Assembly (NCBI RefSeq): GCF_000417505.1
Contig: NZ_APHY01000002.1
Span: forward strand, 1-63,661
DNA length: 63,661 nucleotides
Origin: Megasphaera sp. NM10
GTDB lineage: Bacteria > Bacillota > Negativicutes > Veillonellales > Megasphaeraceae
Direction of reading: 5' to 3'
The notes under the pieces were generated by a model that did not search any database, had not been told where the DNA came from, and saw nothing but the letters and a program-made list of their open reading frames with translations. The stretch's first letter is position 1, and each line of letters opens with the position of its first letter. Below are positions 3,047 through 58,310 of the stretch, piece after piece. Made by a program: the position numbers and the translations under genes.

Positions 3047-3074
3047 AAAGGAGCTGTCCTAAGACAGCTCCTTT
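3047..3074 (-). terminator. Intrinsic terminator of the tRNA cluster
   Basis: An 11-bp stem built on ggagctgtc/gacagctcc has a short loop and a U-rich tail on the minus strand (TTTTC). It ends the tRNA transcript just before the scpA promoter. The plus-strand side also has a T-rich tail, so it may work in both directions. Confidence 0.75.
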
Positions 3075-3239: not shown

Positions 3240-3313
3240 TGGAGGCGGCACCCAGAATCGAACTGGGGATGAAGGTTTTGCAGACCTCTGCCTTACCGCT
3301 TGGCTATGCCGCC
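3240..3313 (-). tRNA. tRNA-Cys (anticodon GCA)
   Basis: A 74-nt cloverleaf with encoded CCA. The acceptor stem GGCGGCA/TGCCGCC is perfect, the anticodon loop CTGCAAA gives GCA, and the T-arm contains GTTCGATTC. It is fourth in the transcribed order of the cluster. Confidence 0.95.
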
Positions 3314-52716: not shown

Positions 52717-54999
52717 CTAATTACATTTACTCCAGCCGCAGTTTTTGCAGGTGTTGCAGCCGCCTTCAAAGACTAAGGGTTCGCCGCACTGGGGGCAGAG
52801 CATGCTTTCGGCTGTGACCTTCTTTTCAGCTTTCGGCCGGACCGGCGTCTTTTTGACTGGCGTATGGCCGCTGGCGACGGATGCCGTCTGATGCAGTTCT
52901 TCCTGGACTTCATCGAACATTTCCAGCAGGGCGTTGCCGACCGTCATGGGGCAGCACGAACCGCGGCTGGTATCGCCGCGCGTCGCCCGGCGCACCGAAT
53001 AGGACGGGCAGTTGCCTGTCGAATTGAGCTGGTCGACGATGGTATAGATATCGATGCCGGCGCGGGCACTGATGGAAATCATGCGCGACAAGCCGATCAT
53101 AAAGTTGTTGCAGCCGCCTGTCGAGCCCTTGCTGAGGTATGTTTCCAGGAGAGCCCCTGTCTGGGGATCGAAGAAAGCCATGCAGTGCAGGCTGCCGCAA
53201 CCCGTGATGAGTTTACGTTTCTTGCCGATGACGTTGTCGTCGATGCTGACGATTTCACCGCGTTCCAGGCCTTCACCAGCCGTAGGTACACGTTTTTCTT
53301 CTTCATGGGTCGTCAGGATACCGGCCCGCTTGCAGCCGTCGCGGAACAGGGTCAGGCCCTTACAGCCCTTTTCATAGGCCAAGAGGTAGAGGTCTTCCGT
53401 ATCTTCGACGGTAAAGCTGTTGGGCACGTTGACTGTCGAACTGATGGACGCATCGATGTGCTGCTGCCAGGCTGCCTGCATTTCGACGCGTTCATGATAA
53501 TCCAGGGTCAGGGCCGTGACGAAGTATTCCGGAAGCTGGCCGTCGTCTTTGATGTGGTACTTCTTCATATAGCGTTCGACAATAGGCGTATAGACCTTAT
53601 AATAGACGTCCGTCCCGTGGAGGGATTCCGTCTTGCGTTCATAGAAGTTCGCATAAATCGGTTCGATGCCGCCGGAAATGCCGAGCATCGTCGACAAAGT
53701 CCCCGTCGGGGCGATGGTCAGGAGCTGGGAATTGCGCAGGCCGTATTCCTTGACCAGTTTGGCCGTCGCTTCCGTCGTGTTGGCTTTGAAATAAGGCGTA
53801 CTCATGATTTCATCGATATGGCATTTTTCGAAGGCACCGCGCTGATGAGCCAGTTCTGCCGACGCAGCGATAGCCGTATCGGCCATGGCAAAGCCGATAT
53901 CATGACAGAAGGCGACGGCGTCTGTGCTGCCATAAGTCAGGCCCATCTGGATGAGCATGTCGCCGAGGCCCATGATGCCCAGGCCGATCTGGCGCCAGGC
54001 TTTGACGCTTTCCCGCTGTTCTTCCAAGGGATGCAGGGGCAGGCCTTCTTCGAGGACATCGTTCAGGGCCCGGACGGCAATGCGGACGCAGCGCTTGAAT
54101 TCATCGAAATCAAAGGTAGCGTTCGGCGTAAAGGGATCGTTGACGAAGTTGGACAGGTTCATGCTGCCCAAGAGACAGGAGCCACCGGCCGGCAACGGTT
54201 CTTCGGCGCAGGGATTGACGCCGGCAAAGGAAAATTCCGGCGTGTGGGCCAGGAGGTTCCACGATTTGATGCGGTCCCAGAACAGGGCGCCCGGTTCGGC
54301 ATAGTCCCAGTTCGTTTCTGCGACCAGGCGGAAGACGTCGGCTGCATTGACCAGGCTTTCAATGACCTGCCCCGTTTCCTGTCGCTTGAAATGGAGGCGG
54401 AACTGTTTGTGTTCCTTGACGGCTTCCATGAATTGATTGCTCAGGCGGATGGAAATATTGGCCTTAGTCACCTTATTGAGGTCCGTCTTGAGCTTGATGA
54501 AATCCAGGACATCAGGATGGGCACAGTCGATGGAAATCATCAAGGCCCCGCGGCGGCCGTTCTGGCCGATCAGTTCCGTGACCAGGGAATAGAGGGTCAT
54601 AAAGGAAATAGAACCGCTCGTTTCTTTGGCCGCGTTGTTGATGCGCGCCCCTTTCGGACTCAAGCGGGAAATATCGATGCCGCAGCCACCGCCGTAGCTG
54701 TAGGTCCGGGCCAATTTCCCGGCCCGGTCGAAGATGCTTTCGATGCTGTCTTCCGGCGGCGTCATGACGTAACAGTTGGACAAGGTAATCTTCTTGCCTT
54801 CATATTCCAGTCCCCGGTTGGCCAGGATGCGGCCGCCAAAGAGAAATTTCTTGGTTTTGATCAAATCGGCGACTTCTTCATCGCCGCCACTGATGCGGCC
54901 GACCCAATGGTCAAAGGTTTCGCCGTTATCGCAATATTTATTCTTCCAAATATCCAGGCCGAGCTGATTCTCTGCACCGAGCCATTCTTGTTCGTTCAT
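52717..54999 (-). CDS. nrdJ: Adenosylcobalamin-dependent ribonucleoside-diphosphate reductase (class II)
   Basis: Class II reductases make deoxyribonucleotides with B12 and without oxygen, suiting an anaerobe. The 760-residue protein has the substrate-site block GVNPCAEEPLPAGGSC near 258-273 (catalytic Cys and Glu of NPCAE), FDRAGKLARTYSYGGGCGID near the N-terminus, and TIAPTGTLSTMLGISGGIEP late in the barrel. The C-terminus ends in a four-Cys pair (CPQCGEPLVFEGGCNTCKNCGW) that probably passes electrons or binds zinc. A perfect 38-bp palindrome lies right after its transcription start. No cobalamin riboswitch was found. Confidence 0.95.
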   Translation of the reverse strand: MNEQEWLGAENQLGLDIWKNKYCDNGETFDHWVGRISGGDEEVADLIKTKKFLFGGRILANRGLEYEGKKITLSNCYVMTPPEDSIESIFDRAGKLARTYSYGGGCGIDISRLSPKGARINNAAKETSGSISFMTLYSLVTELIGQNGRRGALMISIDCAHPDVLDFIKLKTDLNKVTKANISIRLSNQFMEAVKEHKQFRLHFKRQETGQVIESLVNAADVFRLVAETNWDYAEPGALFWDRIKSWNLLAHTPEFSFAGVNPCAEEPLPAGGSCLLGSMNLSNFVNDPFTPNATFDFDEFKRCVRIAVRALNDVLEEGLPLHPLEEQRESVKAWRQIGLGIMGLGDMLIQMGLTYGSTDAVAFCHDIGFAMADTAIAASAELAHQRGAFEKCHIDEIMSTPYFKANTTEATAKLVKEYGLRNSQLLTIAPTGTLSTMLGISGGIEPIYANFYERKTESLHGTDVYYKVYTPIVERYMKKYHIKDDGQLPEYFVTALTLDYHERVEMQAAWQQHIDASISSTVNVPNSFTVEDTEDLYLLAYEKGCKGLTLFRDGCKRAGILTTHEEEKRVPTAGEGLERGEIVSIDDNVIGKKRKLITGCGSLHCMAFFDPQTGALLETYLSKGSTGGCNNFMIGLSRMISISARAGIDIYTIVDQLNSTGNCPSYSVRRATRGDTSRGSCCPMTVGNALLEMFDEVQEELHQTASVASGHTPVKKTPVRPKAEKKVTAESMLCPQCGEPLVFEGGCNTCKNCGWSKCN

Positions 55000-55031
55000 A
55001 ATCTTCCTCCTCCACTGCGCATAGCAAACGC

Positions 55032-55069
55032 ATGACCGCCGTCTACTACATGTAGTAGACGGCGGTCAT
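55032..55069 (-). promoter_or_regulatory. 38-bp perfect palindrome at the start of the nrdJ transcript
   Basis: Bases 55032-55069 are a perfect inverted repeat with no loop (half-site atgaccgccgtctactaca). It begins about five bases after the predicted transcription start and ends about 35 bp before the nrdJ start codon. It lacks a T-run in either direction, so it is not a standard terminator. It could be a repressor operator or a 5' mRNA hairpin. It does not resemble the NrdR box I know. Confidence 0.7.
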
Positions 55070-55080
55070 TTACTATACTA

Positions 55081-55109
55081 ATAATAGCAGGATGGCGGGA
55101 AATAGTCAA
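55081..55109 (-). promoter_or_regulatory. Promoter of nrdJ
   Basis: On the minus strand TTGACT (55104-55109) and TATTAT (55081-55086) with exactly 17 bp between. Predicted start near 55074. Confidence 0.8.
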
Positions 55110-55138
55110 GTATCGGAAATGCATAGTCCGACGCCTTC

Positions 55139-56095
55139 CTAGTCATTGAGGACATCCTTTTCTATGAAACGGCTGACGACGCGCAGGTAATCGCTGCGGT
55201 CTGTTTCAATGCCGACAGCATGAGGAGAGTCAGCAAAAATATAGAGTTCTTTTTTCGGGCTCGTACAATTATCATAGAGGCTCTTTGCCGTCTTGACCGG
55301 CACCAGGGCATCGTCGCTGCCGTGAAGGAAGAGGACAGGCATCTTCATCCGCTTCACAGCCTGCGCCGGTTCCAGGGAAGACACGGTCTTGTGGGTATGG
55401 TAGAACATGGCAGCCTGGAAGAAGGGGTCCAGGAGGTCATAACTCCAGATAGCCCGCTTATCTCCTGAAGCCTGCCACAATTTCTCCCGTCCCAGGGAGA
55501 TGATATTGCCATAAGAGCTATCGGCGACGACAAAGGACAGGTCCTTGCCGTATTCACTGCCTGCATACAGCAGGGCCATGGCCGCTCCGAGGGAGACGCC
55601 GTGCAGGCCGATGCTCATCTGTTCATCGCGGTTGCGCAGCCACTGGCACCACATGGCCAGGTCATCAATTTCCCGGATGCCCCATTCCGTATGGGCCCCT
55701 TCGCTTTCGCCGTGGCCCCGCAGGTCGATGAGCAGGATATTATAGCCCAGGCGGCGATAGACTTCCATATAAGGCAGGCACATGGACCGATTCTGGTAGA
55801 GGCCGTGGATGAGGATGACCGTCTTATGGGAATCATGACGGTTCTCGATATACGTCCCGCGCAGGATCGTCCCGTCCTGACCATTGACCCGGACCGGTTC
55901 CCAGCCCCGTTCCTTTTCCCACTGGCGGACGGTGGACACGTCTCGGCTGTGGTTCTCGATGCCCAGGAGCTGGTCCCAGGGAGCATCATAAAATTCTTCA
56001 TAAGCCATGTTTCCGATATAAGCCCCGATACCGCCCAAGATGACGGCCAGGCAGACCAGGAACAGGAGCAGGCGTTTCAAGAAGCGCTTCATCAT
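55139..56095 (-). CDS. Alpha/beta hydrolase with N-terminal membrane anchor
   Basis: The 318-residue protein begins with a hydrophobic anchor (LKRLLLFLVCLAVILGGIGA) and then a serine hydrolase fold: VILIHGLYQNRSM (oxyanion HG), LIDLRGHGESEG, nucleophile elbow GLHGVSLGAA (GxSxG), LFLHGSDDALVP (acid Asp) and a late His in ADSPHAVGI. It resembles the FrsA/YqkD group of esterase-like proteins. The substrate is unknown. It is the last gene after dhaK-dhaL-dhaM, six bp from dhaM, but functional linkage to dihydroxyacetone metabolism is unproven. Confidence 0.82.
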   Translation of the reverse strand: MMKRFLKRLLLFLVCLAVILGGIGAYIGNMAYEEFYDAPWDQLLGIENHSRDVSTVRQWEKERGWEPVRVNGQDGTILRGTYIENRHDSHKTVILIHGLYQNRSMCLPYMEVYRRLGYNILLIDLRGHGESEGAHTEWGIREIDDLAMWCQWLRNRDEQMSIGLHGVSLGAAMALLYAGSEYGKDLSFVVADSSYGNIISLGREKLWQASGDKRAIWSYDLLDPFFQAAMFYHTHKTVSSLEPAQAVKRMKMPVLFLHGSDDALVPVKTAKSLYDNCTSPKKELYIFADSPHAVGIETDRSDYLRVVSRFIEKDVLND

Positions 56096-57136: not shown

Positions 57137-58126
57137 TTATTTTTTCCAGGCCAGCGTATCGGCCGGTGCATCGTAGAGAGCCTTCATTTCGTCATCCAGG
57201 CGCAGGAGAGTGATGGAGAAACCAGCCATTTCGATGGATGTCATATAATTGCCGACCATCGTGTCGTAGACGCTGATGCCCTGTTCCTTGAGATAATCCT
57301 GTACGAAGTTGTTGACGATGTACAGTTCCATGAGCGGCGTCCCGCCCATACCGTTGATGAGGACGACGACTTCATGACCTTTATAATCGAGATCCGCCAG
57401 AATCTGGTCGACGAGCATCTTGGCGATTTCATTGGCCGGACGCATTTTTTCCCGATGCGTCCCCGGTTCGCCATGGATGCCGATACCGATTTCCATTTCA
57501 TCATCGGCCAGTTCAAAGCCCGGTTTTCCCGCAGCCGGAACAGTGCACGGTTCGATGGCCATGCCCATGGAGCGGACGTTGGCGATGACCTTTTCGGCGA
57601 CGGCCTTGACTTCCGGCAGTTCAGCGCCCTGTTTAGCTTTGGCACCGGCGATCTTATGGACGAAAATCGTACCGGCTACGCCGCGGCGGCCCGTCGTATA
57701 CAGGCTGTCCCGGACGGCGACGTCATCATTGACGACGACATAGTCGGCCTTGATATCTTCATCGGCTGCCATTTCGATGGCCATTTCAAAGTTCATGACA
57801 TCACCTGTATAGTTCTTGACGACGCAGAGGACGCCTTTATCCGTCGCTACGGCTTTGATGCCTTCCAGGACCTGGTCCGGTGTCGGCGACGTGAAGACCG
57901 TCCCGGCCACGGCGCAGTCGAGCATGCCCGTGCCGACGTAGCCGGCATGAGCCGGTTCATGGCCGCTGCCGCCGCCGCTGACCAGGGCGACTTTGTCTTC
58001 TTTTTTGTCGGCCCGGACGACGATGGTCCCATAATCGAGTTTGCGCAGCTTCTTCGGTGCCGATTTGACCAGGCCCTGAATCATTTCCTCTTCAACGTTG
58101 TTGACATCATTGACAATTTTTTTCAT
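57137..58126 (-). CDS. dhaK: Dihydroxyacetone kinase substrate-binding subunit DhaK
   Basis: DhaK binds dihydroxyacetone covalently through a histidine and phosphorylates it to DHAP, feeding glycolysis from glycerol or triose. The 329-residue protein has LVSGGGSGHEPAHAGYVG near 50, NYTGDVMNFEMA, and the substrate histidine in IGIGIHGEPGT near 219. It is first of the dhaK-dhaL-dhaM set, directly downstream of the pyrR terminator. No clear promoter was found in the 28-bp gap, so it may lie within the terminator region or repeat block. Confidence 0.95.
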   Translation of the reverse strand: MKKIVNDVNNVEEEMIQGLVKSAPKKLRKLDYGTIVVRADKKEDKVALVSGGGSGHEPAHAGYVGTGMLDCAVAGTVFTSPTPDQVLEGIKAVATDKGVLCVVKNYTGDVMNFEMAIEMAADEDIKADYVVVNDDVAVRDSLYTTGRRGVAGTIFVHKIAGAKAKQGAELPEVKAVAEKVIANVRSMGMAIEPCTVPAAGKPGFELADDEMEIGIGIHGEPGTHREKMRPANEIAKMLVDQILADLDYKGHEVVVLINGMGGTPLMELYIVNNFVQDYLKEQGISVYDTMVGNYMTSIEMAGFSITLLRLDDEMKALYDAPADTLAWKK

Positions 58127-58154
58127 GATAACCCCTTCTTTCTAGGATATAGTT

Positions 58155-58188
58155 AAAAGAGCTTGTCGCACGTACGACAAGCTCTTTT
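58155..58188 (-). terminator. Intrinsic terminator after pyrR
   Basis: The stem agagcttgtcg/cgacaagctct with loop cacgta is flanked by A4 and T4. It closes the lspA-rluD-pyrR transcript about 145 bp past the pyrR stop. Confidence 0.85.
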
Positions 58189-58310
58189 AAGTGGTTAGTG
58201 GCTAGCAGTCAGTTGTTAGCGGATGGTTAAAAATTTACATCAATCTTCAAACATTAACGCCAGGATAACCAGATAAGATGGTCGAAAACTTCGTGCGATG
58301 TTCACTTAAG
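58189..58310. repeat. Heptamer array and AT-rich element in the pyrR 3' UTR
   Basis: Units AGTGGTT, AGTGGCT, AGCAGTC, AGTTGTT, AGCGGAT (58190-58224) are followed by atggttaaaaatttaca, the core also found near 22.43 and 47.10 kb. The tail gatggtcgaaaacttcgtgcga (58278-58299) matches that near 47.17 kb. No gene is present. Confidence 0.75.

Follow-up and report, generated by a model that had tools for sequence, protein, structure and literature searches.

Why should a perfect palindrome of 38 bp lie at the very beginning of the predicted transcript of a ribonucleotide reductase gene in Megasphaera? In the window, i.e., the whole stretch of 63,661 bases that was analysed, positions 55032-55069 consist of two 19-nt arms that are 100% complementary with 0 nt between them, which agrees with the exact 38-bp palindrome described by an earlier, sequence-only reading of this DNA. 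No loopless palindrome in the window is longer, only one other has arms of at least 10 bp (10-bp arms), and 2.8e-7 loopless palindromes with 19-bp arms are expected in the window from its base composition. A second copy at up to 3 mismatches is absent from the window. The earlier reading treated palindrome and promoter together, as a range of 55032-55109; the individual features are as follows:

52717-54999, minus strand: nrdJ, adenosylcobalamin-dependent (class II) ribonucleotide reductase, 760 aa (TIGR02504, 477.7 bits, cut-off 399.95)
55004-55013, minus strand: Shine-Dalgarno-like GGAGGAGGAA, unpaired in the predicted RNA fold
55032-55069, minus strand: palindrome (inverted-repeat search); in RNA form a predicted 17-bp stem with a 4-nt loop (RNA fold), covering roughly +5 to +42 of the predicted transcript of nrdJ
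55081-55086, minus strand: -10 element TATTAT, with TG ahead of it (promoter call)
55104-55109, minus strand: -35 element TTGACT, with a spacer of 17 (promoter call)

The ATG of nrdJ is at 54999-54997 and the sigma-70-like promoter pair, TTGACT-17-TATTAT, occupies 55109-55081 on the minus strand. Two promoter-like sites were called, the second being weaker and on the plus strand, against a mean of 0.6 in shuffled sequences. Transcription of nrdJ is predicted to start near 55074, about 7 nt past the -10 element, hence the palindrome begins near +5 or +6, which fits the earlier claim that it lies a few bases past the predicted start.

The centre of the palindrome points to the repressor NrdR. 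A symmetric 16-bp box model, seeded with the NrdR consensus of the literature, was trained on 101 sites in 70 nrdJ leaders, all from outside the Megasphaera family and, judging by record titles, mostly from Lachnospiraceae-type Clostridia. The model converged on CCACAATATATTGTGG, with the highest information at C4, A6, A8, T9, T11 and G13. Its C4 and G13 are nine apart, matching the G-C pairs at this distance that are reported to be important in NrdR boxes in the accessible part of PMC9110341. When applied to the window, the model ranks the core of the palindrome first:

55043-55058, minus strand: strong NrdR-like box CTACTACATGTAGTAG, the palindrome core (13.8 bits, first in the window; ACNANATNNNGT in 13 of 13 leaders)

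This site is also the best in its leader. It is a 16-bp palindromic box in which the conserved C occupies box position 4 and the conserved G, nine further on, position 13, with an A/T-rich centre, ACATGT, the commoner centre being ATATAT. However, the runner-up in the window, at 3309, scores 12.7 bits and comes close behind, which counts against an assignment to NrdR, and the core scores lower than its counterpart in the relative G006 (13.8 vs 17.9 bits). The sequence-only reading considered the palindrome to be unlike an NrdR box, which these scores contradict. Its proposal of an operator for a dimeric or tetrameric repressor was right in kind, although the repressor that is best supported, NrdR, was the one that it had set aside.

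Conservation separates the core from the rest of the palindrome. The nrdJ gene was sought in 60 genomes, own included, of which 16 others belong to the same family (14 of the same genus and 2 of another genus). A close nrdJ was found in 12 of these 16, with 84-95% identity over the 190-residue query; in G003, G004, G010 and G014, two of which are less than 90% complete, no nrdJ match was obtained at E 0.001. The alignment of the 13 family leaders (12 and our own) contains two conserved features, the promoter and the box ACNANATNNNGT, present in 13 of 13 with a centre that varies among relatives (ATATAT, GATATG, others). The held-out model selects the aligned box as the best site in all but one of the 12 other family leaders, at 13.2 to 18.4 bits; the exception is G005 (leader L008), where a downstream box scores 8.4 bits vs 7.8 for the aligned one. 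The wider set of nrdJ leaders came from 80 of 109 relatives; L079, with 64 bases upstream, was left out, and the Acidaminococcus leader L065, used with 134, reaches at most 1.9 bits for any box. The GC-rich arms, CCGCC(A/G)T...A(T/C)GGCGG, are found only in G000 (own genome), G006, G012, G013 and G009, i.e., in our own genome and its four nearest by nrdJ (93-95% identity, the next genome being at 89%), nrdJ identity being the measure by which close relatives are defined here. The earlier reading had made its case depend on conservation of the palindrome upstream of nrdJ in close relatives: the core is so conserved in 13 of 13 family leaders, whereas the long arms are restricted to 5 of 13.

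The genome encodes the corresponding protein, an NrdR of 154 aa beside an ftsZ-like gene (TIGR00244, 205.1 bits vs a cut-off of 124.65), and NrdR is present in 16 of the 16 genomes searched, own included. At the contact positions of the S. coelicolor repressor, whose DNA-contact residue roles are taken from the accessible text of PMC9110341, it has D15, R17, R26-29 and R37, with K in place of R12. Furthermore, the box found upstream of one ribonucleotide reductase gene, nrdJ, recurs at a second, nrdD, where the leader box CTACTATATATAGTAT reaches 17.1 bits and is stronger than the nrdJ core. The 2.61-Mb genome has three exact ACWAYATRTWGT sites, one each at nrdJ and nrdD and one upstream of a glycerate kinase-like gene, while about 1.3 are expected by chance according to a hand estimate; the third site has no ribonucleotide reductase gene near it and is perhaps due to chance. 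Only exact sites were used because, once 1 or 2 mismatches are allowed, box patterns do not exceed the reversed control in the genome (2 vs 7 and 47 vs 80). No strong box was found around nrdR itself in the stretch scanned there, the best match being 5.2 bits. Taken together with the conservation of the box, these data indicate that the palindrome core is very probably an NrdR operator controlling nrdJ, of which it would form the strong box.

The nrdD leader has a layout of its own. In the genome under study (L139:1499-1600, contig C56 of G000), it contains three NrdR-like matches, each separated from the next by 42-46 bp or about four helical turns, and the triple match is present in 5 of the 5 Megasphaera-genus genomes checked (L139, L157, L158, L159 and L160). 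The strongest match of these leaders scores 13.1-17.1 bits and the weaker ones 0.5 to 10.6, the strongest being the first in 4 of 5.

According to the accessible part of PMC12051234, published NrdR sites are pairs of boxes with spacers of 15-16 bp (14-17 or 24-27 being functional), and high-affinity binding requires two boxes. In our own genome, two candidates for a partner were found:

55012-55027, minus strand: degenerate second box TTGCTATGCGCAGTGG, candidate partner 31 bp downstream, overlapping the Shine-Dalgarno by 2 bases (position recurs in relatives; score -12.0)
55075-55090, minus strand: weak upstream match CTGCTATTATTAGTAT, alternative candidate 32 bp upstream, over the -10 element (score -1.9; conservation confounded by the -10)

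The weakness of both, downstream and upstream, counts against NrdR. Among relatives, the downstream position is the one that recurs. In 14 leaders (12 of the family and two of Acidaminococcaceae, L054 being dropped as a duplicate of L053), a partner 31-32 bp downstream has a positive score in 9, with a z of 6.8 against 110 two-distance windows; when the training leaders L060 and L063 and leader L008, whose core was assigned manually to the aligned box, are removed, 6 of 11 remain. An upstream partner at -32 is positive in 0 of the 14. At the downstream place, G006 scores -3.7, L053 (Megasphaera massiliensis) and L054 6.9, and L055 -6.8 at best.

A pair search that allowed distances of 17-44 was applied to 68 other leaders, which are training sequences, the distance itself being untrained. 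A pair above 3 bits was found in 52 leaders, separated by 30-32 bp in 51 of them, and was absent in 16. Among leaders from outside the family, 51 have both pair and promoter; in these, the boxes flank the -10 element, with near-constant centres at medians of -14 and +17 from its end (10-90 percentiles, -16 to -14 and 16 to 18). The strong box of the 13 Megasphaera-family leaders, by the same measure, is found between +18 and +30, any partner seen lying beyond it. It is at +18 in L061 and L062, which matches the place of the second box in other leaders, and there the partner is on the downstream side. Our reading of these positions is that the operator may have been shifted downstream into the leader in the Megasphaera family.

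What, then, are the arms? Contiguous pairing outside the box extends over 11 flank pairs in L003 and in L004, 7 in L053 and 9 in L055. In the other ten of the 14 leaders, 0-5 flank pairs are present and add up to 16, compared with 6.1 expected when the flanks are shuffled (P 0.0075); among non-family boxes above 8 bits, of which there are 108, the mean is 0.7. The hairpins of the four distinct arm-bearing sequences are predicted to fold at -31.3, -29.9, -23.8 and -26.0 kcal/mol; the values elsewhere are -11.9 for L056, -8.8 for L058 and -1.9 to -5.6 for the other eight. In our own genome, the predicted fold of the full leader leaves the Shine-Dalgarno open. The stable 5' RNA hairpin proposed by the earlier reading is thus predicted, but it is strong in only 5 of 13 family genomes, and therefore appears as an addition to the operator. 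In terms of the predicted folds, the outer GC-rich arms are a lineage-specific layer, separate from the box, which would form this 5' hairpin.

Between G000 and G006, both perfect over 38 bp, 4 of 4 substitutions form two mirror pairs, of which one lies within the box and the other beyond it (chance of such a placement 0.0023). Such changes are compatible with compensatory change in RNA, with symmetric protein contact for the inner pair, or with template switching. A covariation score on the five arm-bearing sequences, four of them distinct, was reached by 50 of 500 shuffles. Over the box and the five flank positions next to it in the 14 leaders, there are 14 G-U vs 7 A-C mismatches, counts that are too small, and from sequences too closely related, to favour either reading.

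The arms could be the by-product of template-switch mutation, which perfects quasi-palindromes, and have no function beyond that of the NrdR box. We consider this explanation, which applies to the arms only and is compatible with an NrdR core, unlikely on balance, yet a possibility to be taken seriously. It would account for two genomes that are both perfect and differ solely at mirror positions, for a graded symmetry (7 to 11 flank pairs), and for the absence of arm-bearing copies elsewhere in the genome. However, CCGCC and GGCGG are invariant in all five arm-bearing genomes, which suggests some upkeep, the species being close.

A primarily RNA-level role, in which a 5' hairpin would protect or tune the nrdJ mRNA and the likeness to the box would be incidental, seems very improbable. 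The predicted stem is very stable in the five arm-bearing genomes (4 distinct sequences) and leaves the Shine-Dalgarno free in our own, the substitutions between G000 and G006 are mirror-paired, and L011, L056 and L058 have shorter complementary flanks of different sequence, with 4-5 pairs. However, the core is also conserved where the leader has little or no hairpin (L057, L059 from M. cerevisiae, L061 and L062 from M. paucivorans; -1.9 to -4.3 kcal/mol), which argues that it is kept for something other than a hairpin, and it is recognised by a box model trained on other taxa.

Another dimeric repressor, or an unknown regulator of nrdJ, could also use a palindrome of this kind. The motif of CopY/BlaI-type repressors is TACAnnTGTA, and TACATGTA lies within the core in our own genome. 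Against this, the centre differs in relatives, the fit is to the NrdR model and there is a companion box at nrdD, so that the proposal has hardly any probability left.

Several candidates were rejected outright. A dispersed repeat or mobile element end does not fit a pattern of arms and core that occurs, at up to 3 mismatches, in one place per genome in 5 of the 17 genomes searched, own included; half-arm matches in the genome, at the same tolerance, show a modest excess over the reversed control (97 and 112 vs 70 and 78). An assembly fold-back artefact was rejected because the structure recurs in 5 genomes, among them G006, which is a single contig. A leader peptide was rejected because the short ATG frame that crosses the palindrome in G000 and G006 lacks its ATG in L053 to L055. 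An intrinsic terminator was rejected since neither arm is followed by a T-run on either strand, as the earlier reading had seen, and no terminator-like call falls on the palindrome; the only such site called in 54900-55300 sits elsewhere, at 55182-55198.

Other hairpins of the window were recorded in passing. The inverted repeat that comes second by arm length (58153-58190, 16-bp arms and a 6-nt loop) is A/T-flanked, lies beside a dhaK-like gene (57137-58126) and looks like a two-way terminator. The hairpin core GCTGTC-N(1-6)-AAGACAGC is found at 3053, 17243, 22373 and 40812, mostly flanked by A- and T-runs and terminator-like, and has 42 + 47 matches genome-wide (three sites counted on both strands) vs 1 + 1 in the reversed control.

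The mechanism published for other NrdRs, which we infer to apply in Megasphaera, would run as follows. When dATP is plentiful, NrdR carrying dATP and ATP would assemble as a tetramer on two boxes about three helical turns apart; the bound tetramer would kink the DNA and turn nrdJ off, and a drop in dATP would lead to its release. In the Megasphaera family, the strong box would lie in the transcribed leader with its usual partner 31-32 bp further downstream, hence repression would affect promoter escape or early elongation besides initiation. In our own genome and its closest relatives, the box would have gained complementary GC-rich arms, giving a 17-bp hairpin at the 5' end of the mRNA, which perhaps stabilises the nrdJ message.

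The most likely interpretation overall is an NrdR operator with a predicted, lineage-specific 5' mRNA hairpin that may have a role of its own. A more ambitious proposal is that a single palindrome has two roles: in DNA it would be the operator of NrdR, and in the nrdJ mRNA of the arm-bearing Megasphaera species a 17-bp 5' hairpin. The site would have moved from promoter to leader, and paired changes would have lengthened its symmetry and preserved it intact, which would tie dATP-sensing repression to message stability or early elongation. This is put forward tentatively and, as a whole, is doubtful.

An unexplained long palindrome can in this way be assigned to a known repressor, and the assignment predicts NrdR control of both nrdJ and nrdD in Megasphaera. 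An operator placed in the leader, as opposed to around the -10 element, offers a natural test of whether NrdR can block elongation in addition to initiation; the arms, being lineage-specific, make it possible to test in what way an RNA role could be acquired by an operator. Titles and abstract openings in the literature on NrdR and Megasphaera contained nothing on the topic, and the arrangement is undescribed in those of the matches listed on box placement and spacers, roadblock and hairpin-operator combinations.

Three known systems invite comparison. With cobalamin riboswitches, the locus shares a B12-dependent enzyme, NrdJ; however, the Rfam cobalamin family has no match in 54900-55300 at E up to 1, as the sequence-only reading had anticipated, and the 8 Rfam matches obtained are all microRNA-type hairpins far below gathering (24.6 bits for the best vs a gathering score of 90), so this and other Rfam RNAs were rejected. 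The E. coli ompA leader is an example of a 5' stem-loop that stabilises mRNA. Similar to such stabilisers, the leader in our own genome has a stable predicted hairpin a few bases from its predicted 5' end, with the Shine-Dalgarno free; in contrast to them, it is built around a DNA operator and is known from a predicted fold. The closest likeness is to the NrdR operators of S. coelicolor nrdRJ and nrdAB, E. coli nrdHIEF and L. monocytogenes nrdDG, as presented in the accessible parts of PMC9110341 and PMC12051234. These share with our locus a 16-bp palindromic box whose C and G are nine apart, located upstream of a ribonucleotide reductase gene in a genome that encodes NrdR, and a partner spacing of about three turns, which is seen here in the relatives. 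They differ in that the boxes described in those parts are upstream of or over the start, whereas the strong box here would be about 23 bp into the predicted transcript, with a recurring partner that lies downstream and is degenerate in our own genome, and in that the perfect symmetry here runs to 38 bp.
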